In this document: in pieces, positions 9,211 to 38,404 of the stretch
Layout: each line of letters begins with the position of its first letter
Numbering within the stretch: position 1 is the first letter of the stretch
Origin: Halopiger xanaduensis SH-6
GTDB taxonomy: Archaea; Halobacteriota; Halobacteria; Halobacteriales; Natrialbaceae
Length of the DNA: 64,000 bases
Assembly (NCBI RefSeq): GCF_000217715.1
Contig: NC_015666.1
Coordinates: 2,306,270 to 2,370,269, forward strand
Reading direction: 5' to 3'
Made by a program: the position numbers and the translations under genes
The notes under the pieces: model-generated
What the model was told of the DNA's origin: nothing
What the model saw: only the letters and a program-made list of their open reading frames with translations
The model's database searches: none

Positions 9211-9364
9211 TACAAGAGGAGCGAGCCACGTACTTCAGGTTTCAATTGAGACGGGTATGGATTGATAAGTTGATCCCTCACTTCCACTCTCGGTAGTAGC
9301 AACCAGACTCCTAACTTGGTAGCTTTTCACGTCCCCACTCATAGGCTGGAACGGAAGACCATTG

Positions 9365-10153
9365 ATGAAAATCGGAATGATTGGCGCAGGGAATGTCGGG
9401 AGTACAGCCGCTCAGAACTTCGTTGAAGCAGGCCACGAGGTTATGATTAGTAATTCTCGGGGGCCAGAAACACTCACCGATCTCGTTGACGATCTGGGAA
9501 GCAACGCTCATGCGGGGACCGTCTCTGAGGCAGCCGATTTCGGCGAAGTCGTCATGGAGGCGATTCCGTTCAATGCATACAAATCCCTCCCTGCGGACAC
9601 TCTCGGTGATAAGATCGTTATCAGTGCCTCAAATTATTATCCGGGACGTGACGGACTAACCGACGTAGGGAAGACACATACGGACCTCGTTGCGGATCAT
9701 CTCGAAGACTCAAGAGTGGTCAAGGCATTCAATTCTATTTATTGGGAAAACCTCCGAGACGGACAACGGCTCGAGGCCGATCCGGATGACCGTTTTGCGA
9801 TATTTATCGCTGGGGATGATGATGAGGCGAAAAGTGTAGTTTCGAGTCTTATCGAAGATATTGGATTCACTCCTGTGGATACAGGTCTACTTACTGAGGG
9901 AGGCCGTCACATAGAACCGGGTTCGCCGATCTATACTGGCTCACTGACCGCGAGTGAGGCACGGACGCGGTTAGCGGCACTCAAAGCGACTGTGGCTGCA
10001 TATGAAAACGGCTACTACAGTCCCTCGCAGGAAGTCACAATCCAAGAACTAGCTGATGAATTAGACATGAGTGAAGAGTCGCTCTCAGAACATCTTCGTC
10101 GGGGGACAGAACAACTCATCAGTCAATATCTTAAGTCATTCCCCTTTAGTTAA
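9365..10153 (+). CDS. F420-reductase-like Rossmann domain fused to HTH_10
   Basis: A 262-residue protein with two parts. Residues 1-~200 are a COG2085-type dinucleotide-binding domain (NADPH:F420 oxidoreductase-like): glycine loop MIGAGNVGS at 5-13, NSRGPETL at 30-37 typical for the 2'-phosphate of NADP, and GSPIYTGSLTASEAR near where stand-alone relatives end. Residues ~205-256 continue into an HTH_10 (bat-type) domain, AALKATVAAYENGYYSPSQ...IQELADELDMSEESLSEHLRR, closely matching the HTH at 2948-3610. I use the ATG at 9365; a TTG one codon earlier is less likely. It could be a redox- or F420-state-sensing regulator. It is divergent from the HxlR gene. Both domains look complete, with no frameshift. 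Confidence 0.88.
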   Translation: MKIGMIGAGNVGSTAAQNFVEAGHEVMISNSRGPETLTDLVDDLGSNAHAGTVSEAADFGEVVMEAIPFNAYKSLPADTLGDKIVISASNYYPGRDGLTDVGKTHTDLVADHLEDSRVVKAFNSIYWENLRDGQRLEADPDDRFAIFIAGDDDEAKSVVSSLIEDIGFTPVDTGLLTEGGRHIEPGSPIYTGSLTASEARTRLAALKATVAAYENGYYSPSQEVTIQELADELDMSEESLSEHLRRGTEQLISQYLKSFPFS

Positions 10154-22108: not shown

Positions 22109-23227
22109 TCAGTCGCCGCCGACGCCGACCGAGCGCTCGAGTTCGGCCGGCTGTCGCTGGCCGAACTGGGCGAGGGCGTCGAGCCCGTCGACGCGGCCGC
22201 GTGCGGTCGCCACGTCGACGATCAGTTCGGTGAGGTTCACCGTGTCCGCGAGGAAGGCGTTGCGCCGGCGCTGCCACTTCTCGTCGACGTCGTCGGACCG
22301 GAGCAGCGGCACCGCGCGGTCGACGATCGCGTCGGCCGAGGCCACGTTGTGAATCAGGCCCTGCTCCTCGAGCGCGACGAAGTTGCCCATGTCGTCGTCG
22401 CCGACGAAGGAGTTCGAGCGGATCGCCGGCGTGCCCAGCAGTGCAGCCTCGGTGACCATCGTCTGGGTGTCGGCGACCAACAATTCGGCTTCGGCGAGGG
22501 CGTCGTGCATCAGCGCGGGGTGGAGATCGAACGGCCGCGCCGGCAGCCCCTCGAGGTCGGCCTCGCCGCTCTCGTCGGAGACGAGCACCGTCGCATCCTC
22601 GCCGAGGCGCTCGACGATCCGGCGGCGATCGTCGGCCGTGAGCCCCCGCTTGCCGACGTCGTGTTGCGAGCCGAAGGCGTTGAGCCGGAGGATGACGTAG
22701 GGTTCGTCGGCCCCGAGCTCGAGGCGGTCGCGGATCGACGGGTTCGGCTCGTAGATTTCGGGGTGGAGGTACGCACACTCCTTGAAGCCGGGGAAGACGT
22801 AGTGGTTCCGACCCAGATTCTTCCGGAAGGTGTCGGGCGTGAGGACGGCGCGGGCGAACGGCGTCGAGATCGTGTGGTCGAACGACGCCGGCTCCGAGTC
22901 GATGAGCAGGACCGTCGGCGTCCGCAGGACGGCGCCGGTGTGGGCCGCGTAGCCGCCCATGCCGAAGACGAGATCGGGATCGAAGCGCCGCGCCTGCGTG
23001 ATCGCGCGCGCGTAGTGGGCCGGCAGGCGGCTCAAGAGCGACCCCTTCGAGGTGTCGCAGGCCCCGTACACCGCGTACGGGAGCTCGTACCACTCGAGGA
23101 GATCGACCGTGCAGGTGTAGTCGCGAGCGAGCACGAGCACCTCGTGGCCGCGGTCGCGCAGCCGCCGGACGGCGTGTTTGTACAGATGGACGTGTGCCGG
23201 GGTGTTCGTGAAAAACAGGTACTTCAT
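22109..23227 (-). CDS. DUF354 family glycosyltransferase-like protein
   Basis: A 372-residue cytoplasmic protein of the DUF354 family, which resembles UDP-GlcNAc 2-epimerase/GT-B glycosyltransferases. It begins MKYLFFTNTPAHVHLYKHAVRRLRDRGHEVLVLARDY, the classic N-terminal Rossmann half. Further motifs are LVFGMGGYAAHTGAVL and LVADTQTMVTEAALLGTPAIRSNSFVG, typical of the nucleotide-sugar side. The start is the ATG at 23227; the open frame upstream holds the regulatory motif. It is divergent from the toroid/GT4 pair. Confidence 0.85.
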   Translation of the reverse strand: MKYLFFTNTPAHVHLYKHAVRRLRDRGHEVLVLARDYTCTVDLLEWYELPYAVYGACDTSKGSLLSRLPAHYARAITQARRFDPDLVFGMGGYAAHTGAVLRTPTVLLIDSEPASFDHTISTPFARAVLTPDTFRKNLGRNHYVFPGFKECAYLHPEIYEPNPSIRDRLELGADEPYVILRLNAFGSQHDVGKRGLTADDRRRIVERLGEDATVLVSDESGEADLEGLPARPFDLHPALMHDALAEAELLVADTQTMVTEAALLGTPAIRSNSFVGDDDMGNFVALEEQGLIHNVASADAIVDRAVPLLRSDDVDEKWQRRRNAFLADTVNLTELIVDVATARGRVDGLDALAQFGQRQPAELERSVGVGGD

Positions 23228-23270: not shown

Positions 23271-23297
23271 TTGTTATCTAGCTCGTACCGACTGTAA
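23271..23297 (-). promoter_or_regulatory. Shared glycan-cluster upstream motif, copy A
   Basis: On the coding strand TTACAGTCGG, 10 nt, then ATAACAA, ending 44 nt before the DUF354 start codon. The same arrangement precedes four other genes in this region (26083-26110, 31283-31309, 33267-33293, 34715-34742). It may be a combined regulator site and promoter element. Confidence 0.6.
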
Positions 23298-23350
23298 CGC
23301 GAAGCGGGAAGGTCAGCAGTCGGACCCTTGGCCGCGAACCGGGGCGGTAA

Positions 23351-23371
23351 CAGCCGTATAATAATAGGACG
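23351..23371 (+). promoter_or_regulatory. CAGCCGTATAATAATAGGACG element, copy 2
   Basis: Near-copy of the 21950 element. TATAATA lies about 30 nt before the ATG at 23392, so it could be the TATA box of a leaderless or near-leaderless transcript for the toroid gene. Confidence 0.5.
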
Positions 23372-23391
23372 ACTCGGCGAGGATCCCGTCA

Positions 23392-24693
23392 ATGCAGTCG
23401 CAAGGACTTCACGTGCCGGACGATCGGGCAGAGACGGGATCGCGCGTTCGGGACGTCGATCGGTACGTCTCCGCGCTCGATTCGATGCTCGCGTACGCGC
23501 GCCGGCGGGACTACATCGGGCCGGATTACGGCGACGGGATGAGCAGCCAACTCCTGCAGGCGCTGCCCGTCGAGAACCGGTTTCTCAATCTGGTCGTTCA
23601 GGAGACCGTCAAGCGCGCGCCGATCGACGTCAGGCCGCTCTTTCGCGTCGAACAGCGGCGCAACTACATGGGGGCGGCGCTGTTTTCGATCGCGAATCTG
23701 AACTACTACGACCTCCTGCAGGCGCGGGGCCAGCGCACCGACCCCGGCTTCGACCCGCTCGGCGAGGCCGAGCGGCTGGCCGAGTGGCTCCTCGAGGAGA
23801 GCCTCTCCGGCTACAGCGGCTTCTGCGGCGGGCATCGACACGAGATCCAGCACCTCCACACGAAGGGCGTGCCGAGCGATCCCGACATCGTTTCGACCTC
23901 GTGCGCGGTCAAGGCGCTCCTGCGGGTCGCCGAACACGAGGGGCGAGAGGAGTACGCCGAGATCGCGCGGACGGCGGTCGACTTCATGGTCGAGGACCTG
24001 AACTACCGCGAGGTCGAGGAGGGCGCGAAGATCGACTACCACCTCAACCACCCGGAGGACTCCTACACGATCAACGCGGCCGCGCTCGGCGCGCAGATGC
24101 TCGTCGACCTCTACGAGTACTTCGGCGACGAGGAACTCCGCGAGCGTGCGACGAAAATTTTCGACCACATCGCGGCCAACCAGACCGACCGCGGCGGCTG
24201 GCCCTACCGGCTCCCGGCGGACGCGTCGCACCTCTCGATGGACAACCACCACAACGGGTTCGTCATCGAATCCTTCCAGCGCTACCGCGAGGTCGTCGAC
24301 GAGGGCCGGTACGCCGACACCCTCGAGGACGCAGTAGAGTTCTACCGCGAGGAACTGTTCGAACTCGACGGCGCGCCGAACTTCGACGAGGAGAGCGCCT
24401 ACCCCCGCGACATCCACGCCAGTACGCAGGGCATTCTGGTCTTCACCCGCGAGGGCGACCTCGAGTTCGCCGAGCGGATTCTCCGCTGGGTGCTCGCGAA
24501 CATGCAGGTCGAGGGCGAGGAAGGGCGGTTCTACTACCGCAAGTACCGGCACCACACCAAGCGCGTGACGCTGATGCGGTGGTGTCAGGGCTGGATGTCC
24601 TACGCGACCTCGGAGTTCCTGCTGGCGTGTCTCGAGGACGACGCTGACGCCGACACCGAGGCCGAGGACCGCGCCGAACCCCTGGAAATATGA
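23392..24693 (+). CDS. Alpha/alpha-toroid protein of the glycosylation cluster (AglQ-like?)
   Basis: A 433-residue soluble protein made of repeating helical pairs, resembling six-hairpin glycosidases or terpenoid-cyclase-like toroids. Such proteins are often misannotated in haloarchaea as antibiotic-transport proteins. Visible signatures are FCGGHRHEIQHLHT, DYHLNHPEDSYTINAAALGAQM, RGGWPYR and SMDNHHNGFVIESF. It may trim or process surface glycans, as proposed for AglQ of Haloferax; the equivalence is inference. It overlaps the next gene by 4 nt (ATGA), so it is made together with the GT4 glycosyltransferase. Confidence 0.75.
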   Translation: MQSQGLHVPDDRAETGSRVRDVDRYVSALDSMLAYARRRDYIGPDYGDGMSSQLLQALPVENRFLNLVVQETVKRAPIDVRPLFRVEQRRNYMGAALFSIANLNYYDLLQARGQRTDPGFDPLGEAERLAEWLLEESLSGYSGFCGGHRHEIQHLHTKGVPSDPDIVSTSCAVKALLRVAEHEGREEYAEIARTAVDFMVEDLNYREVEEGAKIDYHLNHPEDSYTINAAALGAQMLVDLYEYFGDEELRERATKIFDHIAANQTDRGGWPYRLPADASHLSMDNHHNGFVIESFQRYREVVDEGRYADTLEDAVEFYREELFELDGAPNFDEESAYPRDIHASTQGILVFTREGDLEFAERILRWVLANMQVEGEEGRFYYRKYRHHTKRVTLMRWCQGWMSYATSEFLLACLEDDADADTEAEDRAEPLEI

Positions 24694-25928
24694 GCGAAAC
24701 GACTGCCGAACGGACGGCTGGAACGGACGCGCCGGCCTCGAGCGACGGCGCTGGACCGACCGACGCGGACGGGGGTGCCGACTCGACCGCTGGTCGCGGC
24801 GAGACGTCGTCGCCGGCCGATTCCAGAGCACGCTGGCGACGTCCGATCCCGGACGAGGCCGACGAAGACGAACACGACGACGCTCGCGTGCTCGTGATCA
24901 CCGGGCTCTCGCACAAGAACGAGCGCCACTACGGCCCGCTCGCGGACGTCGCCGGCGAGACGACGCTCGTCTGTCTCGAGCCCGAGCGCGCGATCGACGA
25001 CGCCGAGTACGTGCAGGTGCCGGAGATCGGGCCGCGACTCCTGCGGGTCCTCCTGCTGTTCTTCGTGGCCCTCTACGAGGGGTACCGCAACGAGTACGAC
25101 GCCGTCGCGTCGATCTCGCTGCTGCCGTACGGGCTCTACGCGCTCGCGCTGAAGGCCGTCTACGGCTATCCGGCGCACCTGGGAATCATCGGCATCGACC
25201 TCGACCACCACGCTCGGCAGTGGTACGGCGCCGGACCGCGCTGGGCGTTCAGGCAGTTCGACGCGATCTCGGTCCCCGGCTCCGCCCACGCCCGTGAACT
25301 CGTCCGAATGGGCGTCCCCGAGGAGCGCATCGAGATCCTGACGAACGCGATCGACGTCGACACCTACCACCCGATTCCGGCGGACATCGACGCCGAGTAC
25401 GACTTCGTCTGGCTCGGCCGCTTCAGCGCGGAGAAAGACCCCATCCTGTTCGTGAGGGCGCTCGCCCAACTCGAGGCCGACGGCCGCGACTTTCAGGCGG
25501 CGATGGTCGGCACTGGCTCCGATCGAACGGCGGTCATCGACGAAATCGCCGCACGTGGCCTCGAGGACCGCATCGATCTGCCGGGCTGGGTCGACGACCC
25601 GCTGTCGTACTACCGGCGCTCGGACGCCTTCGTGCTCACCTCGCGGCGCGACGCGCTGCCGCTGGCGATGCTCGAGGCGATGGCGTCGGGCCTCGCGCCG
25701 ATCGTTCCGCGAGTCGGCTCGGTTCCGGACGTCGTCACCGATGGCGAGAACGGGATCGTCGTTCCCGACCGGACGCCGGCGGCGTTCGCCAGGGCGATGG
25801 CCCGGTGTCTCGACGATCCGGGCTACCGGGCGGACCTCGCGGACGCCGCGCCGGCGGTCCGCGACGAGTTCGAGATGGACGAGGCGAGCGAGGACTGGCG
25901 GCGGATCCTCTCGACGCTCGCGGGCTAG
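24690..25928 (+). CDS. GT4-family glycosyltransferase
   Basis: A 412-residue GT-B glycosyltransferase that transfers a sugar from a nucleotide donor. The first ~55 residues are a disordered Thr/Ala/Asp leader. The donor-binding half shows VWLGRFSAEKDPILFVRAL, AMVGTGSDR, and DAFVLTSRRDALPLAMLEAMASGLAPIVPRVGSVPDVVTDGENG, with the conserved E-x7-E-like region of GT4 enzymes. A single hydrophobic stretch (LLRVLLLFFVALYEGY) suggests membrane association. It is coupled to the toroid gene. Confidence 0.9.
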   Translation: MSETTAERTAGTDAPASSDGAGPTDADGGADSTAGRGETSSPADSRARWRRPIPDEADEDEHDDARVLVITGLSHKNERHYGPLADVAGETTLVCLEPERAIDDAEYVQVPEIGPRLLRVLLLFFVALYEGYRNEYDAVASISLLPYGLYALALKAVYGYPAHLGIIGIDLDHHARQWYGAGPRWAFRQFDAISVPGSAHARELVRMGVPEERIEILTNAIDVDTYHPIPADIDAEYDFVWLGRFSAEKDPILFVRALAQLEADGRDFQAAMVGTGSDRTAVIDEIAARGLEDRIDLPGWVDDPLSYYRRSDAFVLTSRRDALPLAMLEAMASGLAPIVPRVGSVPDVVTDGENGIVVPDRTPAAFARAMARCLDDPGYRADLADAAPAVRDEFEMDEASEDWRRILSTLAG

Positions 25929-26082
25929 CGCCTGCGTGCTCTCCGTAGCGCCGTTCCGCTCGGTTCGGCCGCCGTCGCGTGCTCACTTCCGTTTCCGAAC
26001 TCGAGTCCTCGAATTCCTACCCGATCGATCGGCACTCGCCGTCGCTCGGTTCGCGCGTCCCTTAGAGACAGTTCCGCGGCCG

Positions 26083-26110
26083 TTACCGTCCGGTAGCAGC
26101 GTGATAACAA
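26083..26110 (+). promoter_or_regulatory. Shared glycan-cluster upstream motif, copy C
   Basis: TTACCGTCCGG, 10 nt, ATAACAA, ending 29 nt before the FemAB-like start codon at 26139. Spacing between the two boxes is identical to copies A, B and D. Confidence 0.58.
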
Positions 26111-26138
26111 AACGAATAGTCGTCGCAGGCAGACACAC

Positions 26139-27158
26139 ATGGACATCGAACGACTGACGCTCGCCGAGTGGGGCGAGGCGCTGCCCCGGTCCGGGTTCGA
26201 GGTGTTCCACGACCCCGACGCGCTGACCGTGCTCGACGCCCACACCGACGCCGAGATGCGCCTCTACGGCGCGTTCAAGGGACAGCAGGCGGTCGGCCTT
26301 CTCCCCGTCTTCGTCGACGAGAAGTCCGTCGGCCGCACCGTCTTCTCGCCGCCCGTCTCGCTTGGGGTCCCCCGCTTGGGGCCGATCATCAACCCGAACA
26401 GCCCGAAGCGCCGCAAGTGGGAACGGATCAACAGCGAACTCGCCGAGGCCGTCGCCGCCGACCTCGAGACCGACAAGCGCTCGACGCTGTTCCGGATGAC
26501 CTGCCCGGTCGGCTACGACGATCCCCGTCCCTACAACTGGAACGGCTTCACCACGGAGCCGAAGTTCACCTACGTCGTCGACCTCGAGGGCTGTTCGGAC
26601 GTCGAGGACGCGATGTCGGGGTTCAGCAAGAGCCTCCGCAACGAGATGCGCCGCTACGACGATCTCGACCTGACGATCGAGCAGGAGGGGATCGATTCGG
26701 CGATGCGGATCTACGAGGACGTCGTCGTCCAGTACGAAGAGTACGACGACACCGCGCCGATGACCGAACCCTTCCTCCGCGATCTGCTCTCGTCGCTCGA
26801 CGACGACCGCTGGCGGGTCTACGTCGCCCGGACGCCGGACGGCGAGTACAAGAGCGGCATCATCACGCTGTTCTCGAACGATCTGGCCTACTACTGGCAG
26901 GGCGGCGTCGTCGCGTCCTACGAGCACGTCAGCGTCAACAACCTCCTCCACCGGGTCATCCTCGAGGACATCGTCACCGATCCGGAACTCGAGTCGGTGA
27001 CGGGGTACGATCTGGTCGGCGCGAACACCGAACGGCTCTGCGAGTACAAGGGGAAGTTCAACGGCGAACTCCGGCCCTACTACGCGGTCGAATCGGAGGG
27101 GCTCGAGATGACGCTCGCGAAGTCCGTCTACAGCACCGTGAGCGGCTCGCTGAAGTGA
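26139..27158 (+). CDS. FemAB-like (GNAT fold) acyltransferase, paralog 1
   Basis: A 339-residue protein of the FemAB/BioF2-like acetyltransferase superfamily, which transfers acyl or aminoacyl groups to cell-surface precursors. Motifs shared with the paralog at 35068: FKGQQAVGLLPVF, FSPPVSLGVPRLGP, DDPRPYNWNGF...FTYVVDL, and YDLVGANTERLCEYKGKFNGELRPYY. No signal or membrane segment is seen. It probably decorates a glycan or lipid-linked precursor in the cytoplasm. It has its own copy of the shared upstream motif. Confidence 0.83.
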   Translation: MDIERLTLAEWGEALPRSGFEVFHDPDALTVLDAHTDAEMRLYGAFKGQQAVGLLPVFVDEKSVGRTVFSPPVSLGVPRLGPIINPNSPKRRKWERINSELAEAVAADLETDKRSTLFRMTCPVGYDDPRPYNWNGFTTEPKFTYVVDLEGCSDVEDAMSGFSKSLRNEMRRYDDLDLTIEQEGIDSAMRIYEDVVVQYEEYDDTAPMTEPFLRDLLSSLDDDRWRVYVARTPDGEYKSGIITLFSNDLAYYWQGGVVASYEHVSVNNLLHRVILEDIVTDPELESVTGYDLVGANTERLCEYKGKFNGELRPYYAVESEGLEMTLAKSVYSTVSGSLK

Positions 27159-27231
27159 GCCTCGAGTAGTCGCATTCAGTCTCCCCGCCGAAAACGAAGC
27201 GAACGAACGGGTCGATTTTCGAACCGCGGCG

Positions 27232-29217
27232 TTATCGAGCGTCGTACTCGACGTCGACGAGCGCGTCCCCGTTCAGCCAGAAGTCCGTGATGTTGCCGCT
27301 GAACCAGTAGGCGTCCTTCGAGCCGTCGACGGAACCCTCGACCGCGGTGCTGTCGACGCTGTCGCCGTCGTCGATCGTCGCGTCCTGGTAGCTCGCCTTC
27401 TCGACCGATCCGGAGACCTCGAACCGATACCGGGCCGATTCACCGGTCTCGGTTGCGTCGATGACGAGCGCGTTCGACGGCTGATCCTCGGAGTCGTCCT
27501 CGTTTTCGTCGTTCTCGTCGTTCTCGTCGTCTTCGTCGCCGTCGTCACCGGAGGTTGCATCGATGACCTCCTCGACGGACAGCTCCTCGCCGTCGAGTTC
27601 GACCCACATCACGTCGGGCTGGTCGATGTCGATCGACGTGACAGGACCCGAGACGCGGAAGGCGTCGCCGTAGCCGCCGCCGGTAAGTCCGCTGACGCGG
27701 TACGTGCCGTCCGACTCTTCGATCGTGTCGTTGCCGTTGCCGCCGATACTCCCGCCGGAGGGGCTCTCGTAGTCGGCCTCGGCCAGTTCGACGGCCCCCT
27801 CGGCCGTGAACTCGTACTCGGCGTACCTGGCGTCGGCGTCGGTCACGAACGCGAGCAGGTGGTCGCTTTCCTCGCTCTCGTCTTCGTCGCCGTTGTCGCT
27901 GTCGTCATCGGACGTGGCTTCGATGACCTCCTCGACGGACATCTCCTCGCCGTCGAGTTCCACCCACATCACGTCGGGCTGGTCGATGTCGATCGACGTC
28001 ACGGGACCGGCGACGCGGAAGGCGTCACCGTAGCCGCCGCCGGTGAGTCCGCTCACGCGGGCCGTGCCGTCCGACTCCTCGACGGAGTCGTTACCGTTGG
28101 CGCCGATGGAGCGACCGGACGGGCTCTCGTAGTCGGCCTCGGCGAGTTCGACGGCCCCCTCGGCCGTGAACTCGTACTCCGCGTTCCGCGCGCTGGGGTC
28201 GGTGACGAACGCGAGCAGGTGGCCCTCGAGTTCCTCGTCGTCCTCGCCGTCCTCGTCGGGTTCGTCCCCGTTGCTCGGCGGGGACGGACTGACGCCGCCG
28301 CTGCCGCCGCCCGAGGCGGCCTCCTCCGCCGAGAGCGGCACGCCTTCGACCTCCTCGGGGGAGGTGCGCTGCGGTGAACCCGCGGACGAGCCGTCGATCG
28401 AGCCCGAGTGAACGTGTTCCGTCTCGTAGCGGACGTTCTCGAGTCGCGGTCTGGCGTCGTCCCGCCAGTGGCCGTCGCCGACGCGGATGTCGCCGAGGTT
28501 CGAGTCGGAGAAGTCGCAGTCGACGACTTTCGGTGAGTTGTAGAACGCCCAGAAGCCGCAGTCGGAGCCGACGGAGACGCAGTTCTCGACGCGGCTGCCG
28601 TCGGTTCCCACGCGGAACGAGGAGGCGACGCAGTCGGCCGCGTAGCTGTTGGTGATGATCACGTCGCCGCCGCCGCCACCGCCGCTTGGGTGGGAGGAGA
28701 GGTCTCCCGGCGAACTGCCGTAGATCGCGTTGTCGGGCATGTCCTGGATGTTGACGTTGTTGATCCGGATCGTCCCGCTGTGGGCGTTCGCCACGTAAAT
28801 GCCCGTGGGGCCGTTCGGGTAGGAGTCGCCCGTCGCCCCGTCCGCGAAGTAGTAGTTGTCGATGACGCCGTCGCCGCTGACGATGAACGGCTCCGCCTTC
28901 GTCGTCTCGTCCCAGTTCCCGCGGATCCCGAGGTTGCGGACTTCCCAACCCGACCCGCGCGCGGAGATCTGGAATTTCGCGTTCCGCGCCGAAATGTCGA
29001 TCAGCGTGTTCTCGAGCGTGTCGCCGCTCCCGAGGGAGATCGTGTGCGTTTGTCCGGCGGGGACCTCGATGACGTCGTAGTCCTCGCCGGCAGCTGCAGC
29101 GGAGCCGGCGCCGGCGACGCCGAGCGTCACCGCACTCGCGGCCGCTTTCATATAGGAGCGCCGACCGACCAGCGTTCGTTCGTCGGAATCCGAGCCAGAC
29201 TCCTCGTTGGTAGTCAT
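27232..29217 (-). CDS. Tat-exported beta-helix protein with C-terminal repeats
   Basis: A 661-residue secreted protein. The Tat signal is GRRSYMKAAASAVTLGVAGAGSAAA, spanning about residues 18-43. Residues ~50-280 form a right-handed parallel beta-helix of pectate-lyase type (NTLIDISARNAKFQI, RINNVNIQDMPDNAIYG, VIITNSYAADCVAS). The C-terminal ~370 residues hold two nearly identical ~102-residue modules with a 120-residue period and a divergent third, joined by Asp/Glu/Asn-rich linkers. It probably binds or cleaves an extracellular polysaccharide. The start is the ATG before TTNEESG; upstream sequence is promoter. Confidence 0.85.
   Translation of the reverse strand: MTTNEESGSDSDERTLVGRRSYMKAAASAVTLGVAGAGSAAAAGEDYDVIEVPAGQTHTISLGSGDTLENTLIDISARNAKFQISARGSGWEVRNLGIRGNWDETTKAEPFIVSGDGVIDNYYFADGATGDSYPNGPTGIYVANAHSGTIRINNVNIQDMPDNAIYGSSPGDLSSHPSGGGGGGDVIITNSYAADCVASSFRVGTDGSRVENCVSVGSDCGFWAFYNSPKVVDCDFSDSNLGDIRVGDGHWRDDARPRLENVRYETEHVHSGSIDGSSAGSPQRTSPEEVEGVPLSAEEAASGGGSGGVSPSPPSNGDEPDEDGEDDEELEGHLLAFVTDPSARNAEYEFTAEGAVELAEADYESPSGRSIGANGNDSVEESDGTARVSGLTGGGYGDAFRVAGPVTSIDIDQPDVMWVELDGEEMSVEEVIEATSDDDSDNGDEDESEESDHLLAFVTDADARYAEYEFTAEGAVELAEADYESPSGGSIGGNGNDTIEESDGTYRVSGLTGGGYGDAFRVSGPVTSIDIDQPDVMWVELDGEELSVEEVIDATSGDDGDEDDENDENDENEDDSEDQPSNALVIDATETGESARYRFEVSGSVEKASYQDATIDDGDSVDSTAVEGSVDGSKDAYWFSGNITDFWLNGDALVDVEYDAR
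27555..27861 (-). repeat. Intragenic repeat copy 2 of beta-helix protein
   Basis: Encodes HLLAFVTDADARYAEYEFTAEG...VEEVIDATSG, nearly identical to 27915-28221. The 360-bp period and near-identity in DNA suggest recent duplication or gene conversion. Confidence 0.75.
27915..28221 (-). repeat. Intragenic repeat copy 1 of beta-helix protein
   Basis: Encodes HLLAFVTDPSARNAEYEFTAEG...VEEVIEATSD. Differs from copy 2 at few positions (for example SPSGRSIGANGND against SPSGGSIGGNGND). A third, divergent module (LVIDATETGESARYRFEVSG) follows copy 2. Confidence 0.75.
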
Positions 29218-29537
29218 ACACTGCGGTTCAGGAACAGTCCGTCGAAGTAAGAATCTCTTCAACTGATTAGTCTTTATAATAGGACAGTCATGATCGAGCA
29301 ATCATCAGGGAAGACGAATAAACTCGCTAATGTGAATGTGAGGGAGAGCAGACGATCGGCGACAAAGTGCGGTTCAGTGGCTGCCTCGAGGCGCCAGGCG
29401 GACAAATCGGCGACGAGCGGAAGCGACGGCAGCGTCAACACTGCTCAAGCGCACACTGGCGGTAGTGGCGACGGACGGCGCGGACCCAGTGCCTTCGGAA
29501 CGGAAAACAGGAAGAAACGGCGAGGGGCGTCGCGCCG
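29218..29537. promoter_or_regulatory. Intergenic region upstream of beta-helix gene
   Basis: 320 bp with no supported gene. TATAATAGGAC at 29275-29285 is the third copy of the element found at 21950 and 23351. It lies about 60 nt upstream of the beta-helix start, read in the same orientation relative to the chromosome as the other two. Confidence 0.45.
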
Positions 29538-31073
29538 TTAACTCAGTTGCGCGACGGCCCGGCGCAGATCCAGCAGGCCGCTGGTGACCGCCAGCGCGAG
29601 CCAACTGACGACGCCGAGGAGGACGATCGCGAGCAGGGAGGCGACGCTCGAGACGTAGGGCAAGCCGAGCACGACGATCAGGGACATGCCGCCTGCGATA
29701 CTGCAGACGGTCAGGGCCGTCCGGAAGAGCGACCGGAGCGGGAGGGACAGTTCGGAGTGGATGAGGTAGATGTTGATTCCGACCATGATCGCGTAGCTGA
29801 TCACCGTCGACAGCGCCGCGCCGACGACGCCGATCGTCGGCAGGAGGACCAGGTTGAGAACGAAGTTGAGCGCCGCCGTTCCGCCCTTCGAAAGCGCCCT
29901 GTGGCGGGCGCGTCCGAGGAAATCGAGCGCGTCGTCGGTGATCTTGTTGATCGACTGGAGGACGACGAACGCCGCGAGCACCTGCACGATCGGAATCGCG
30001 CCGAGATAGCCGTCGCCGAAGACGTATCGGACAGCAGGATCCGCAACCAAGGCGATCCCGGCGGCGGCGGGGACGTAGAAGAGCAGGTTGTACTCGAACG
30101 TCGTATGGTAGATCTCGGCGGCCCGCTCGAGGTTGTCGCTGGACTTCGATTCGCCGTAGGCGGGCGCGAGCGCGAACCCGAGCGAGCTCGCGGGCGCCGT
30201 CACGAACTCGGTCAGTTGCTTGGCCAGGGTGTAGTACCCGACGGCGACGGGGGAGAGGATCGCCCCGACGAGCACGATGTCGACGCGCTTGTAGAGGATC
30301 GACGCGGCGCCGGTGACGGTGAGCGGGAGGCTGTACTCGAAGATGCGGCGGGTGAGGTTCTCGGTCTCGTCGGCGTCGTCACTCCCGGCCGACGAGGCTC
30401 CCTCCCCATCGGTCGACCCGGTCGCGGCCGTCTCACCGGTCGCGTTCCAATCGGCGCCCGACACCCACCGGTAGAGGACGGTCAGCCCGAGCGTCGCGCT
30501 CAGCGCGTAGCCGACGACGTAGCCGAACAGCGCCCCGGCGACGCCGAACCCGAGCGCGAGCAGCGACAGGACGGACGCGAGGATGCCGAGGTTCGCGACG
30601 ATCAACAGCAGCGCGCTCCAGGAGACGCGGTTGAAGCCCTGACAGAGGAAGTACCCGAACGAGTGGAGCGTCCGGGCGACGATAAAGAGGAATCCGATCG
30701 TGAGCAGCCAGACCAGGTCGGGCTCGCCGAACTGCGCGGCGATCGGCCCGCGGAACGCGAGGACCGTCCCCGCGACGACCGCGATCGCGATCACGTTGAA
30801 CGTCAGCGCGCGGCGGACGATGAACGGAATCTTCGACGGATCCGTCTCGCGGAACTCGGTGACGTACCGCGCGGCCGACTTGGCGAACCCCATCCGGCTG
30901 AAGAAAATCGCCACGCTGCAGATCGAAATCGCCAGGTACAGCAGGCCGTACTCCTCCGTCGTCAGGAAGACGTTCGTCAAGAGGAGCACGAGCAGGCCGT
31001 TGACGCCGACTTCGACGACCTTGGCGGCCAGATTCGCCTTGAACCCGCTGACGAGCTTGTCGGTTTCGGGCAT
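29538..31073 (-). CDS. Polysaccharide flippase (MOP superfamily, AglR/Wzx-like)
   Basis: A 511-residue protein with about 12-14 membrane helices, of the oligosaccharide/polysaccharide flippase family. It probably moves lipid-linked glycans across the membrane. It begins with the typical KLVSGFKANLAAKVVEVGVNGLLVLLLTNVFLTTEEYGLLYLA. An acidic cytoplasmic loop sits near residue 230 (STDGEGASSAGSDDADETE). The start is the ATG at 31073; the open frame upstream is Arg/Pro-rich and unlikely coding. Copy D of the shared motif lies 210 nt upstream, implying a long leader. Confidence 0.9.
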   Translation of the reverse strand: MPETDKLVSGFKANLAAKVVEVGVNGLLVLLLTNVFLTTEEYGLLYLAISICSVAIFFSRMGFAKSAARYVTEFRETDPSKIPFIVRRALTFNVIAIAVVAGTVLAFRGPIAAQFGEPDLVWLLTIGFLFIVARTLHSFGYFLCQGFNRVSWSALLLIVANLGILASVLSLLALGFGVAGALFGYVVGYALSATLGLTVLYRWVSGADWNATGETAATGSTDGEGASSAGSDDADETENLTRRIFEYSLPLTVTGAASILYKRVDIVLVGAILSPVAVGYYTLAKQLTEFVTAPASSLGFALAPAYGESKSSDNLERAAEIYHTTFEYNLLFYVPAAAGIALVADPAVRYVFGDGYLGAIPIVQVLAAFVVLQSINKITDDALDFLGRARHRALSKGGTAALNFVLNLVLLPTIGVVGAALSTVISYAIMVGINIYLIHSELSLPLRSLFRTALTVCSIAGGMSLIVVLGLPYVSSVASLLAIVLLGVVSWLALAVTSGLLDLRRAVAQLS

Positions 31074-31406
31074 CGATTTACGACCCGTCGGCGGTCGGTC
31101 TCGACTCGAGGGCATCACTGTGCGGTTCGATTCGGGGGAGGGCTCGACAGGAATCTGGTACCGTCGGTCCGCCGCCGAGCCACCACGAGCGGGCATCCGA
31201 ACAGCCGATGCGATACGAGGACGTCCGGGACTGGCGTTCGAGATCCGGCATTAACCAGTACAACGCTAGCCGGATCGAGCCCTTGTTATTGATCAGCTAC
31301 CGGATTTCACGCCGACCGTGCGGGATTTTGCGGCCGATTGAATCCGTGATCAGCGTCGGAGAAGGGGCACCAAATCGGAGAGTCGACGCGACGGCCGTAC
31401 TCGAGC
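31074..31406. promoter_or_regulatory. Leader of flippase gene with shared motif copy D
   Basis: 333 bp without a supported gene. On the minus strand AAATCCGG, 10 nt, ATAACAA occupies 31283-31309. Unlike the other copies it is far (209 nt) from the annotated start, so either the transcript has a long 5' leader or the motif also acts at a distance. Confidence 0.45.
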
Positions 31407-33233
31407 TTACTCGAGGCTCGAGTCGGTGTCGACGTAGTAGAGGTCGAACTCGCCGTTGGACTGCACCCGGTTCACGTGGGGCTGCGTCGCGACCGAGTCG
31501 AGTTCCTCTTCGGTGTACCGGAGTTCGTTGTACGCGCTCACCTCGCGTTCGTAATCGACGCGCGTCAACGCGAGATATCTGTCCTCGTCGTACCGCGTCG
31601 CGAGCGGGTCGCCGAACGACGACTCGTCGAGATTCTGATGGCGGTGCATTCGTTCCGCGTTCCCGTTGATCGCGTCGTCGAACCGATTCGGTCCGTCCCG
31701 CAGTCCGAGGAACCCGATGTCCTCGTCCTGGTTCTCGAACGCGGTCTCGTAGCCGTTCATCTGCGTGTCGCTGACGTGCGGGGAGGCCTTGTACGTGTAC
31801 GGGGACGGAATCACGGCCGCGAGAGAGAGGACCAGCAACAGGGCGAAGCCGACGGCGATGACCGGATGGCCGGGAACGAACCGGGACCGATCGCCCGAAA
31901 ATTTGGTCGTAAGTCCGTGGATCGCGATCGAACCGAGCAGCGTCACGAACAGCATCATCAGCCCGAAGACACGGAAGTGCATCGTCGAATCCGGCGCGAG
32001 GAAGTAGATTCCGAACAGCGGGACGAGCGCCACCAACGCGCCGAGGAAGTACATCGTCTCGGCTCGAATCGACGCGAACCAACTCGAGTTGCGCCGGACG
32101 ACCACGCCCAACGCGAGCGCGCCGACGAGGAGCACGAACACCAGTTGCGCGGTGAACAGTTTGAAGAACACCTCGACGAGGCTGCCGCCGATCGCCGAGA
32201 GCGACGCTCCCTGTACCGCGACGGTGTCGCCGGCGCCGCTGCGACCCTCGAGTACGAACTCGATCGCCGCAGAGAAGAAGTGCTCGAACATCCCGCTGAA
32301 GAAGTCGTGGTTCGAGGTCCACACGAGGAACAGGCCGATCAGAAACGCCGAGTGGCCGTAGAGCGTCGTCTGGCCGGCCATCCGACCGTCGCTCGCGACG
32401 CGCCGCGCGAGGAACTGGAGCGCACAGATCCCGAGGAAGACGGCGATCAGGTGGGCGACGAGCTGGGGGTGATAGACGACGGTCGCGATCGAGACGAACG
32501 CGAGGGCGACGCCGATCGCGGACGCGGGCCGAGAGACGCTCTCTCGACCCGGCCGAACGTACTTGACGAGGAGGTACACGAGCAGCGCCGAGAACAGCAC
32601 GGCCTGGGACATCGCGTGCGCCTCGAGGAACATCGAGATCGTCGTGATCGGCAGCAGGAGAAACGCAGCAAAGGCGCCGATCGCCGCGGCGCGGCCGCGA
32701 TCGTCGGGAACGATGGTGCCGACGCAGAGCGGAACGAACGTACAAAACACCAGCACGGCGAGCAGGACCATCAGCAGCATCGAGCGCGAGAGGGGGATGC
32801 CGAGGGCCGAGTGGATGAAGACCGTCACCGTGTGGATACCGGGATAGTAGAGGTCGAACGGGACGATCGTGCCTTCGGAGAGGGCGCGCGCCCAGCCGAG
32901 GTGCGTTAGCGCGTCGTGGTGGCCGAGAAAGCGGTAGCCGCGGACGATGGGGAGGCCGACGAACACGGTCATCACGAGGCCGCCGAGGGCGACCGCGAGT
33001 CCGCGGTCCGTCCGTCTGTCGCCGCTTGACGGGCCGAACGCGACGGCGAGCGACGCGGCCAGCGCGACCAGCAGGCCGGCCCAGACCTCCGCGGGGGTCA
33101 TCGTGTAGAACGAGAGTTCGTAGCCGGTCGCCGGATTCGAACGCGCGACGAGCGCGCTGGCGGCGACCGCGAGGAAGCCGAGTGTGAGCGCTACCTTTCG
33201 AAGCGAACCGCCGACGGGTGACTGCGTTGACAT
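31407..33233 (-). CDS. Large polytopic GT-C-like membrane protein
   Basis: A 608-residue protein with roughly 12 hydrophobic segments followed by a ~130-residue soluble extracellular C-terminal part (SPYTYKASPHVSDTQMNGYE onward). The FLGHHDALTHLGWARAL loop after the third helix looks like the first luminal loop of GT-C glycosyltransferases, with acidic and His residues. It could be a lipid-phosphate-sugar-dependent glycosyltransferase or polymerase for the surface glycan. The family is not certain. Copy B of the shared motif lies 34 nt before the ATG. Confidence 0.78.
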   Translation of the reverse strand: MSTQSPVGGSLRKVALTLGFLAVAASALVARSNPATGYELSFYTMTPAEVWAGLLVALAASLAVAFGPSSGDRRTDRGLAVALGGLVMTVFVGLPIVRGYRFLGHHDALTHLGWARALSEGTIVPFDLYYPGIHTVTVFIHSALGIPLSRSMLLMVLLAVLVFCTFVPLCVGTIVPDDRGRAAAIGAFAAFLLLPITTISMFLEAHAMSQAVLFSALLVYLLVKYVRPGRESVSRPASAIGVALAFVSIATVVYHPQLVAHLIAVFLGICALQFLARRVASDGRMAGQTTLYGHSAFLIGLFLVWTSNHDFFSGMFEHFFSAAIEFVLEGRSGAGDTVAVQGASLSAIGGSLVEVFFKLFTAQLVFVLLVGALALGVVVRRNSSWFASIRAETMYFLGALVALVPLFGIYFLAPDSTMHFRVFGLMMLFVTLLGSIAIHGLTTKFSGDRSRFVPGHPVIAVGFALLLVLSLAAVIPSPYTYKASPHVSDTQMNGYETAFENQDEDIGFLGLRDGPNRFDDAINGNAERMHRHQNLDESSFGDPLATRYDEDRYLALTRVDYEREVSAYNELRYTEEELDSVATQPHVNRVQSNGEFDLYYVDTDSSLE

Positions 33234-33632
33234 TCGAACTATCCCGTCGTTCGCCGATCGCGGGCCTTGTTATTCGCTCGTTGCCGACTGTAAGCACTGC
33301 AGTACCGTCGTCAGAATCGGACGGTCATCGGTCGCTGTCTTGCTTTCAGATAAAAACATCGCAGCATCCGACCGATAGTCGACAGCTGCGACCAAGCCAT
33401 CGCGGTCGCGTAGTCGGTAACAAGGTTCGCATCTCGAGACCGAATCTCGAGGCCGGACGAAACGGGCGATGCACGGACAACGTGGCTATCCAGAGACGAC
33501 GAACGAGTAACGGAACTGTGAGCACGTCCAACCGATGCAGAGCACGCGACGAGAATGCGAGCGATTATCGTCGATCACTCTCCGCGATTATCCGCGACAC
33601 TTCCCCGCGTCTTCGAGAAAACGAAACGCTCG
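33234..33632. promoter_or_regulatory. Intergenic region with shared motif copy B
   Basis: 399 bp between the GT-C-like start and the DUF1616 stop. The minus strand carries TTACAGTCGG, 10 nt, ATAACAA at 33267-33293, the best match to copy A. No gene is seen in the remaining part. Confidence 0.55.
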
Positions 33633-34676
33633 CTACCCGTCCGACTCCGCCTCGAGATCGTCGTTGATCTCGACCCAGAGGTAGCCCGACCGGTACGCGT
33701 TGTCGACGGTCGGCGTGTCCGGCACGTCGCCCTCGTAGAGCAGTACCGCGATGCGGACCTCGCCGCTCTCGGCGGTCGGTGTCACCGACCGCTCGGCGGT
33801 CGCGGTCTCGCCGTCGCCGACGCTGTACTCGACGCGCTGGTGGTCCGTCCGCTCGAGTACCGAGCCGTCCTCGAGCCACTGCTCCTGGACGACGGCCGTG
33901 TACTCAGTTGTCGACCCTTCTTGGTTCTCCACGGCGATCGTGAGCGGGACGGACTCCCCGGACTCGATCTCGGTCGTGTAGTTCCCTGCAACGAGCTCGC
34001 CCCCGTCGTCCTCGCCGAGGAGTCGGAGGTCGGTGTACTGCTCGGCCTGCTGGGGCGAGACGAGCGCGTAGCCGACGCTCGTCAGCGCGATCACCATGCT
34101 GACGATCAGGACGACGTTGACCGCCGTGTACGCGATTGATCCGCGATCGACGATCGCGGCGCGGGCGGCCCCGACCTTGCGGAGCAGCCGGAGCCGGTAG
34201 CGATCCTGGGCAGGGACGCGGAACCGACGGACCGTAGCAACCGCGACGGTCAGCAGCACGAACCCGCTCACGGCCCCGACGACGACGGGACCCGTAAACT
34301 CGAGCGACAGGGCCGCGGCGGTCAGCCCGATCAGCGGCAGCGACGCGAAGCTCAGGCCGAACGCGAGCGCGGCGCGTTCGACCTCAGTTACGTCTCGCAT
34401 TTGGCCGATGCCGAAGCCCGTCGACGCCTCGAGCGGGGCGGCGCGGGGGAACAGCGCGGCGACGATCGCGTAGCCGGGTGCGAGGAACAATAGCGGAAAA
34501 CCGACCGCGGCTCGCACGACCGGGGAGCCGATATCGACGACCGTCAGGAGGAGGGTCGCGACGGCGACGAATCCGGCGACGGCGACCAGATCGGTCGGCG
34601 TTCGTGTGACGAGGCGTCTGGTTCCCTGGCCGACGGCGACGACCGGCCGAACCGTTCGAATCAGGAGGTCTTTCAT
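33633..34676 (-). CDS. DUF1616 membrane protein
   Basis: A 347-residue protein of the archaeal DUF1616 family. Four to five membrane helices span residues ~30-180 (AVAGFVAVATLLLTVVDI; FPLLFLAPGYAIVAALFP; ALAFGLSFASLPLIGLTAAAL; VVGAVSGFVLLTVAVATV) and another near 200. An extracellular beta domain with NYT/NQEGST-like sequons completes it. DUF1616 genes recur in archaeal surface-glycosylation clusters, but no enzyme function is established to my knowledge. Copy E of the shared motif lies 39 nt upstream of the ATG. Confidence 0.85.
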   Translation of the reverse strand: MKDLLIRTVRPVVAVGQGTRRLVTRTPTDLVAVAGFVAVATLLLTVVDIGSPVVRAAVGFPLLFLAPGYAIVAALFPRAAPLEASTGFGIGQMRDVTEVERAALAFGLSFASLPLIGLTAAALSLEFTGPVVVGAVSGFVLLTVAVATVRRFRVPAQDRYRLRLLRKVGAARAAIVDRGSIAYTAVNVVLIVSMVIALTSVGYALVSPQQAEQYTDLRLLGEDDGGELVAGNYTTEIESGESVPLTIAVENQEGSTTEYTAVVQEQWLEDGSVLERTDHQRVEYSVGDGETATAERSVTPTAESGEVRIAVLLYEGDVPDTPTVDNAYRSGYLWVEINDDLEAESDG

Positions 34677-35067
34677 TTATCCGTCAGTTATCCGATACTC
34701 GACCGGTTCGGATATTGTTACTCGTCGTATAACCGACTATTCAGTGAGGCTACTGGTCGAATCACCGCTCGACTCGCTGGTTTGGAACTCCGCTGCGTCG
34801 CTCGCCGGCGCCACGGACGCAAGACGCGACTGCTCGAGGCCGAACTGCGGCCACAGGCGGGAACCGAACGATCGTAGCGGGTGACTATACTGACCGTCGG
34901 GTTCGGTAGCCACACCGTCGAACACGACAGCGATCGTGACAGACAGCCCGCGATGACGGAAACAGGTTGCTTACAAAGTGCTCGTGAAGCGATGGGTCGC
35001 GTATGGTACGCCGAGCGACTGACAGCGACGACGACGTTCCATCGGCCGTCGCCGGGTGGTCGAGCGC
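34677..35067. promoter_or_regulatory. Divergent promoter region with shared motif copy E
   Basis: 391 bp between DUF1616 and the second FemAB-like gene. On the minus strand AGTCGG, 11 nt, GTAACAA occupies 34715-34742. On the plus strand a weaker TTACAAAG sequence near 34973 might serve the FemAB gene. No coding sequence is supported. Confidence 0.5.
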
Positions 35068-36611: not shown

Positions 36612-36790
36612 ACTCCTCGAACCTCAGTTGAAAAATATATCTTTTGTGTCTCGTTTCCGGCCGGGAAACGGCTGCCGACTGTCGATTGGCTCGGTCCGGC
36701 ACCACCCGCGGGTGACCGACGTTGGAAGGCGAACGATTCGACTCGTAACCGCGTCCATAACCAAGACCCGGCGTCGGGAACTACCGGCCG

Positions 36791-38404
36791 ATGGACGACG
36801 GATCTTCCCTCCAAACGCTGCTCGTCGGCATCGACGCCGCCTGCGACCGCGTGTTGGCACCGATGTTCGAGGACGGCGACCTCCCGGCGCTCGAGTCGAT
36901 CTACGAGCAGGGGGTGAGTAGCTCGCTCGAGTCCCAGATTCCCCCGTGGACGGCCTCGGCTTGGCCGTCGCTGTACACCGGCAAGAACCCCGGAAAACAC
37001 GGCGTCTTCGGCTTTCTCTCCTTCGACGGCTACGACTGGGACGTGGTCAACGCCAGCGACGTCCGCGAGCGGGCGCTGTGGGAACTGCTCGACGACCACG
37101 GGCTCACGAGCGTCGTCGTCAACGTTCCCGTCACGCACCCACCGCGGGAGTTCGACGGCGCGTTGATCCCCGGCTACACCGCGCCGGAAGACCCCGACTG
37201 CCATCCCTCGGGGCTCCTCGAGGAGGTCCGCGACGAGATCGGCGAGTACCGCGTCTACCCCGACGAGGACGCGGCTGACCTCGGAACGGCCTACGTCGAC
37301 TGCGCGCGGATGCGCGGCGAGGCGTTCCGGTACCTCGCCGACCGCTTCGATCCGGCGTTCGGCTTCCTCGAGTTCCAGGGAACCGACTCGATCTTCCACG
37401 AGGAACCCGAGAACGACGAGGCGATCCGATCGATCTACCGCGAGGTCGACCGCCAGCTCGCCACGATCCTCGAGTCCCACGACCCCGACACCGTGATCGT
37501 CGCGAGCGATCACGGGATGGGGCCCTACGACGGCTACGAGTTTCGGGTCAACGACTACCTCCGCGATGAGGGGCTCGTTGCGACCGAAAACGGCGGCGAC
37601 GGGATGCCCACGTGGGCGACGGTTCGGGACGACAGCCTCAAGCGGGGCGAAGACAGCACCGAGTACGATCCCGGCGCCGCCGAACGCGCAATGGCGGCCG
37701 CCGCGAAGGCCGGCCTCACGAGCCAGCGCATCGGACGGCTCCTCGAGCGACTCGGGATCTACGACCTCGTCGCGGCCTACGCCCCGACCGGCCTCGTCAA
37801 CGCGGGCGCGACGCAGGTCGACTTCCCGGAATCGACGGCCTACGTCCGCTCGCGGATCGAACTCGGCGTCCGGCTCAACCTCGAGGGACGGGAGCCGAAC
37901 GGCGTCGTTCCCCGAGAGGAGTACGAGACGGTCCGAACGCGCGTCATCGACGCGCTGCGCTCGGCGACGACGCCCGACGGCGAGCCCGTGTTCGAGGCGG
38001 TGCGCCCGCGCGAGGAGTTCTTCCACGGCCCCGAAAGCGAGCACGCGGTCGATATCGTGACGATCCCGGCCGACTTCGAGCACCTCCTCTCGGCGACGCT
38101 GCGGGACGAGCCGTTCGGCCCGCCGTCGGAGCCGTGGAACCACAAACTCGGGGGGACCTTCGCGGCCCGCGGCGCGGCGATCGATTCGGCGGCCGACCTT
38201 GGCGACCCGCACCTGTTCGACGTGGCGCCGACCGTTTTGGCGTCGCTGGGCGTCCCGATCGACGACCGGATGGACGGCCAGCCGCTTCCCTGCGTCGACT
38301 CGCCGGGGACGCAGTCGTACTCGCGGGCCGACGACCGGAACGCCGTCGCGACCGCCGACGAGGCGGTCGAGGATCGACTCGCCGATCTGGGCTACCTCGA
38401 GTGA
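36791..38404 (+). CDS. Alkaline-phosphatase-superfamily phosphodiesterase
   Basis: A 537-residue cytoplasmic enzyme of the type I phosphodiesterase/nucleotide pyrophosphatase fold. The nucleophile Thr is at about residue 54 in QIPPWTASAWPSLYTGKNPGKHG. Metal ligands are visible in LLVGIDAACDR (Asp15), FLEFQGTDSIFHE and VIVASDHGMGPYDG. Such enzymes lie in many archaeal glycan clusters and may act on nucleotide-sugars or lipid-linked intermediates. The upstream sequence carries a weak ATAACCA box 28 nt before the ATG. Confidence 0.87.
   Translation: MDDGSSLQTLLVGIDAACDRVLAPMFEDGDLPALESIYEQGVSSSLESQIPPWTASAWPSLYTGKNPGKHGVFGFLSFDGYDWDVVNASDVRERALWELLDDHGLTSVVVNVPVTHPPREFDGALIPGYTAPEDPDCHPSGLLEEVRDEIGEYRVYPDEDAADLGTAYVDCARMRGEAFRYLADRFDPAFGFLEFQGTDSIFHEEPENDEAIRSIYREVDRQLATILESHDPDTVIVASDHGMGPYDGYEFRVNDYLRDEGLVATENGGDGMPTWATVRDDSLKRGEDSTEYDPGAAERAMAAAAKAGLTSQRIGRLLERLGIYDLVAAYAPTGLVNAGATQVDFPESTAYVRSRIELGVRLNLEGREPNGVVPREEYETVRTRVIDALRSATTPDGEPVFEAVRPREEFFHGPESEHAVDIVTIPADFEHLLSATLRDEPFGPPSEPWNHKLGGTFAARGAAIDSAADLGDPHLFDVAPTVLASLGVPIDDRMDGQPLPCVDSPGTQSYSRADDRNAVATADEAVEDRLADLGYLE

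Follow-up and report, generated by a model that had tools for sequence, protein, structure and literature searches.

The question raised by this locus is why surface-glycan genes on opposite strands share a short sequence in front of their start codons, and what might read it. The locus lies in a 64,000-nucleotide stretch of Halopiger xanaduensis SH-6 (hereafter the window; 65.6% G+C), in a haloarchaeal genome of 4,355,268 bases in four contigs. An initial annotation had placed a two-box motif upstream of five genes, always in gene-sense orientation; reading the sequence confirmed the positions and the orientation of all five copies. The promoter element itself is almost certainly real, and the explanation as a whole that we consider probable is a promoter class common to haloarchaeal surface-glycan genes.

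The shared element and its position

When the five sites were aligned, the common core was CGG(T/C)A, a spacer of 8 nucleotides (nt; 9 at DUF1616) and RTAACAA. The core is CGGTA-N8-ATAACAA at three of the sites. One (23271..23290, minus strand) is 43 nt from the ATG of a DUF354/glycosyltransferase-4-like gene (22109..23227, minus; Pfam PF04007) and is also found before DUF354 orthologues in many Natrialbaceae. The second (26091..26110, plus) is 28 nt from a gene for a FemAB-like acetyltransferase (FemAB-1; 26139..27158, plus; PF13480) and is likewise seen in orthologue upstream regions, and the third (31283..31302, minus) is 86 nt from a polysaccharide flippase gene (29538..31196, minus; PF01943 and PF13440) and is kept in a sister species (G001). 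A CGGCA-N8-ATAACAA copy (33267..33286, minus) lies 33 nt from the gene for a GT-C-like membrane protein (31407..33233, minus), which had no Pfam match and is conserved in islands of five families. The DUF1616 gene (33633..34676, minus; PF07760) is preceded at 38 nt by CGGTTA, a spacer one base longer and GTAACAA (34715..34735, minus). The copies before the GT-C-like and DUF1616 genes also occur before their orthologues. The gaps of 28-43 nt at four genes agree with the 29-44 nt given earlier, the flippase being the outlier.

The upstream box had been described as TTAC-AGTCGG. CGG(T/C)A is common to the five sites, but TTAC is dispensable: it occurs at three sites (DUF354, FemAB-1 and GT-C), and the complete box is found only at DUF354 and GT-C. 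The FemAB-1 site carries TTACCGTCCGG at this box, and the flippase (TGAAATCCGG) and DUF1616 (GAATAGTCGG) sites are without TTAC. TTAC was rejected as part of the common element because two window sites and most other sites lack it, and a 13-bp palindrome seen in some FemAB-1 promoters, TTACCG-N-CGGTAA, was rejected because it fails in the wider site set.

A divergent sixth copy, GTA-N9-ATAACCA (36745..36763, plus), was recognized by orthologue comparison 27 nt before the ATG of a type I phosphodiesterase family gene (36791..38404, plus; PF01663). The weaker ATAACCA box reported there proved real, as the window and six close orthologues all have ATAAC(C/G)A at 27 nt from the ATG, and four distant orthologues have ATAACAA.

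The spacing between the boxes was analyzed with 142 RTAACAA words located 24-61 nt before a long open reading frame (ORF) in loci fetched by protein homology. GTA stood exactly 8 nt before RTAACAA in 76 of the 142, compared with 0-3 cases at each other distance from 0 to 28 nt. A further 14 cases had GTA at 29 nt and were mostly GT-C promoters; these promoters (e.g., window 33267-33286, minus strand, and loci L096 and L117) have an extra conserved GGTA 21 bp, or two helical turns, above the main box.

The distance to the gene was then measured at 72 non-redundant sites with an ATG-started ORF, accepting starts at 24 nt or more. The RTAACAA-to-ATG distance had a floor of 26, a mode of 28 and a maximum of 93 nt, and was mostly 26-48 nt. 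Other genes of the same loci (479 upstream regions) showed an AT-rich peak at -34 to -27, which is the position taken by RTAACAA, so that in leaderless or short-leader transcripts RTAACAA probably serves as the occupant of the TATA slot. No TATA-like element was seen after RTAACAA at the 72 sites, where the next positions were not AT-rich. GGTA is then centred about 46 bp upstream of a leaderless start, which is the place of haloarchaeal activator sites. Two readings of the box pair are possible, as an 11-bp direct repeat and as a weak inverted repeat (KGT...ACA). RTAACAA is most likely a core-promoter element of the TATA slot rather than a plain operator half. Judged from sequence, it would be recognized by the TATA-binding protein (TBP) and transcription factor B (TFB), and GGTA is a putative regulator contact. 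The proposal of a regulator site overlapping the promoter of glycan genes is supported, with RTAACAA reinterpreted in this way.

Conservation and distribution in haloarchaea

Haloarchaeal families were labelled f1-f10, f1 being the window's own. FemAB-1 orthologues were chosen by protein similarity and not by motif, and FemAB-1 relatives are, by name, nearly all Natrialbaceae. RTAACAA was present 27-34 nt before the ATG in 29 of 29 FemAB-1 orthologue upstream regions of the window's family, the window included; one remote homologue with an ambiguous start (L119) was excluded from this set. The last six letters of RTAACAA were invariant, whereas mean identity was 0.45 in the upstream flank and 0.63 downstream of the word. 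In two other families, RTAACAA stood at 27-35 nt in 17/30 and 12/30 orthologues, nearly all with the GTA box, and several other orthologues of these families had ATAACTA, ATAACCA, ATAACGA or TTAACAA at about this position. In f2, f4, f6 and f7 there were also islands in which the element precedes FemAB-1 or neighbouring genes.

The whole 4.36-Mb genome contains seven matches to TTGTTAY-N10/11-CCGR (the reverse complement), of which five lie inside 11.5 kb; a reversed-pattern control gave one. The Poisson probability of at least five matches in 11.5 kb is approximately 2e-11. The remaining two matches lie within 17-42 kb of the five. A dispersed regulon had been proposed; coordinated surface-glycan genes are supported, but the sites in this genome are mostly clustered.

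A stricter pattern with GTAA matched in 11 of 125 genomes of the family, from three genera, with one control match overall. These loci were glycan islands, themselves in either orientation, with the element before DUF354, FemAB-1, GT-C and DUF1616 orthologues and, in other species, before phosphodiesterase orthologues. A looser pattern yielded many more loci, in which the element preceded FemAB, DUF1616, DUF354, GT-C, other glycosyltransferase and Gfo/Idh-like genes. Across 391 genomes of the class, 138 element matches were obtained against 25 for the reversed pattern (hand count), of which 122 had an 8-nt and 16 a 9-nt spacer; outside the window's family there were 62 element matches against 8 for the reversed pattern. 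Kinship among the genomes means that samples are not independent, so the probabilities attached to such counts are a rough guide only.

An ORF start 20-140 nt downstream was found by a strict rule for 55 of 115 genome-scan matches and for 2 of 30 reversed-pattern matches; a looser rule raised the former to 74 of 115. Among 69 downstream proteins, the leading Pfam assignments were glycosyltransferases, DUF1616, DUF354, phosphodiesterase and FemAB-like acetyltransferase. Glycosyltransferase 2, polysaccharide flippases, Gfo/Idh oxidoreductases and polysaccharide deacetylases came next. A few unrelated families (CheW, solute-binding, aminotransferase) also appeared, some of them presumably chance matches. 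Random spread over the genome without glycan enrichment had been named as the outcome that would speak against a regulon; the clustering, the ORF starts and the glycan Pfam families are its opposite. The element also recurs upstream of orthologues in related genomes throughout Natrialbaceae, and five other families have it before the FemAB homologue.

Two further groups of copies were observed. A divergent copy, CGGGATGACGTGCGATAACAA, lies 34 nt before an ORF in locus L015 (about 1007-1060; G000:C1:220506) whose relatives are annotated as beta-galactosidase on haloarchaeal plasmids; it may be chance or a regulon member. In family f6, loci L124, L126, L128 and L130 contain a well-kept copy of the TTCGGCAACCGGCAAATAACAAAGCC type with no long ORF within 140 nt downstream.

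Candidate regulator and alternative explanations

No helix-turn-helix (HTH) regulator was found among the island genes of the window that were scanned (ORFs of at least 110 amino acids). The window's genome was scanned with G(T/C)A-N8-RTAACAA, giving 13 matches against 9 for the control, so that much of the list is noise. The meaningful matches include four window sites and those before a Gfo/Idh gene (at 28 nt), a polysaccharide deacetylase gene (at 22 nt) and a PadR gene. The PadR gene lies beside a DUF1616 gene, 0.9 kb to the right of the window, and encodes a 91-amino acid protein with a PadR winged-helix domain (PF03551; 53.1 bits against a cut-off of 27) that matches hsRosR structures with an E value of 2e-24. 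GTA-N8-ATAACAA stands in the promoter of this gene in 30 of 30 Natrialbaceae orthologues, and each of the 30 loci also contains a DUF1616 homologue; many genomes have a further promoter with the element within 100-400 bp. Two further homologues with the element are 68% (window genome, L336) and 81% (another genome, L073) identical. RosR-like proteins were present in all 292 class genomes searched, which fits the need for a class-wide regulator.

On these grounds, the 91-amino acid RosR-like protein may be the reader of the element, an assignment we make tentatively and at slightly less than even confidence. In the explanation we favour, RTAACAA would take the TATA slot instead of a canonical TATA box, and GGTA or GGCA, exactly 8 bp (rarely 9) upstream, would occupy the position of an activator site. 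Such a core promoter, weak and non-canonical, would need the help of a DNA-binding protein at the box placed at fixed distance, and glycan genes on both strands and at separate loci would thereby be switched jointly, with the RosR-like winged-helix protein of the PadR family as the best candidate. The element in the promoter of the regulator's own gene implies autoregulation. Control could be by activation or by repression through covering of the TATA slot; we prefer an activator beside the slot.

Several observations weigh against this explanation. FemAB-2 and GH76, glycan genes of the same island, are without the element, as are many FemAB-1 orthologues of f3 and f4; the gene starts on which the distances depend are predicted; and the RosR-like gene may simply belong to the regulon instead of governing it. 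Compared by eye, the published RosR site, TCGnCGACGAGnTCGnCGAC, also differs from GGTA-N8-RTAACAA (PMC4287449).

The alternative that survives best is that both boxes form one operator of a dimeric PadR/RosR-type repressor lying over the TATA slot, whose release would turn the glycan genes on. RosR acts mainly as a repressor and binds close to gene starts (PMC4287449), the boxes are readable as a weak inverted repeat, and the candidate regulator gene has the element in its own promoter. Nevertheless, the symmetry is poor (GGTA versus TGTTA), and no other TATA-like element was seen that could be used after release, so that RTAACAA would still be needed as the TATA element. We consider such an operator unlikely, and equally doubt its corollary that RTAACAA is conserved chiefly as a protein half-site.

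Less probable still, the element would be a core-promoter class whose reader is a dedicated TFB or TBP-TFB pair and not a classical regulator. It has been proposed that TBP-TFB pairs of haloarchaea have different promoter classes (PMC2121645). Eight genomes have a TFB gene inside the island stretch, and in six more, the window genome included, it lies 16-84 kb from the island. However, this TFB has no close match in the two genomes of other families that were checked, the TFBs of element-bearing f2 and f4 genomes being only 67% identical to it and no closer than other paralogues, the TFB gene is approximately 370 kb away in one genome (G010), and GGTA lies farther upstream than a TFB-recognition element (BRE). 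Inherited promoter sequence or chance, with no common regulator, is an extremely improbable explanation: some conservation does extend over whole upstream regions of orthologues (the 0.63 downstream of RTAACAA), but genes that are not homologous, on both strands, have the element in common, the upstream flank reaches only 0.45 against near 1.0 in RTAACAA, and the exact 8-nt spacing, the far fewer control matches and the FemAB-1 orthologues of other families contradict it.

Three other observations were made around these genes. A TFB paralogue (82-98% identical) occurs in or near the glycan islands of many Natrialbaceae (L037:43-1101, minus strand; L030, L027, L043, L036, L076, L075 and L031/L032), that of the window genome being at G000:C3:2403430-2404377; upstream of the TFB gene (e.g., in L037, L027 and L036), most loci have a strongly conserved stretch, GTAAGTCGGTGTTTCC...GAAACCATGTGAACCCCTTACAGT, unlike any element named here. 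Upstream of FemAB-2 (window, upstream of 35056; L033), there is no RTAACAA, but a similar word, CTTACAAAG, is present in several orthologues. Elsewhere in the window, an ORF at 9362-10153 (plus strand) combines an F420-dependent NADP oxidoreductase domain with a C-terminal HTH_10 (Bat-type) domain, an unusual pairing.

Relation to known promoters and biological meaning

The canonical haloarchaeal core promoter consists of a TTWT TATA box and a CGAAA BRE (PMC4983044). The glycan element resembles it in having a core element at TATA distance from leaderless starts, but RTAACAA occupies the slot instead of TTWT. The bop promoter of Halobacterium, with an aberrant TATA box (GTTACA), no recognizable BRE and an upstream activator sequence (PMC2121645, PMC3184054), likewise combines a non-canonical TATA box with an upstream box; it differs in sequences, genes and regulator (Bat with Brz), whereas the glycan element is common to many genes across the class. 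GvpE-activated gas-vesicle promoters also coordinate genes through an upstream activator site whose short distance from the core promoter is critical; the GvpE site must lie close to the BRE (PMC4390858). That site comprises 20 nt, with two 8-nt parts 4 nt apart beside the BRE, and no such parts occur in the glycan element; GvpE is leucine-zipper-like, whereas the candidate regulator here is predicted to be a PadR-type winged helix.

RosR of Halobacterium salinarum, of which the candidate is a homologue, controls other PadR genes and acts with TFBs (PMC4287449), but its regulon concerns oxidative stress and transcription and not glycan genes. In the archaellum regulons of CsmR (Haloferax) and EarA (Methanococcus), a site directly above the core promoter similarly coordinates surface-structure genes, and EarA is believed to make up for a BRE that is weak. 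The CsmR site, TATCA-N4-TGATA upstream of the BRE/TATA, is not matched by the glycan element (compared by eye), the four 6-bp EarA sites are unlike it, and the targets are archaellum, chemotaxis and shape genes rather than glycan genes. A literature search, with subscription papers largely outside its reach, found no description of this element. Regulons with a promoter-proximal site are already known; what is new is that the TATA slot holds an invariant word unlike TATA, at fixed spacing from its partner box and tied to glycan genes across the class.

The control of haloarchaeal surface glycans is little known, and most of these genes (DUF354, DUF1616, FemAB, GT-C-like) have yet to be placed in a pathway. 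With a promoter signature that is strict and searchable, such uncharacterized genes can be assigned to a regulon; it also names a testable regulator, and it bears on the long-standing proposal that haloarchaeal promoter classes differ. A bolder possibility, which we regard as speculative and rather improbable, is a separate haloarchaeal promoter class with its own TATA equivalent, read by the RosR-like protein and/or a dedicated TFB, that acts as a class-wide surface-glycan switch. If true, this promoter-class switch would resemble an alternative sigma-factor regulon in its logic.

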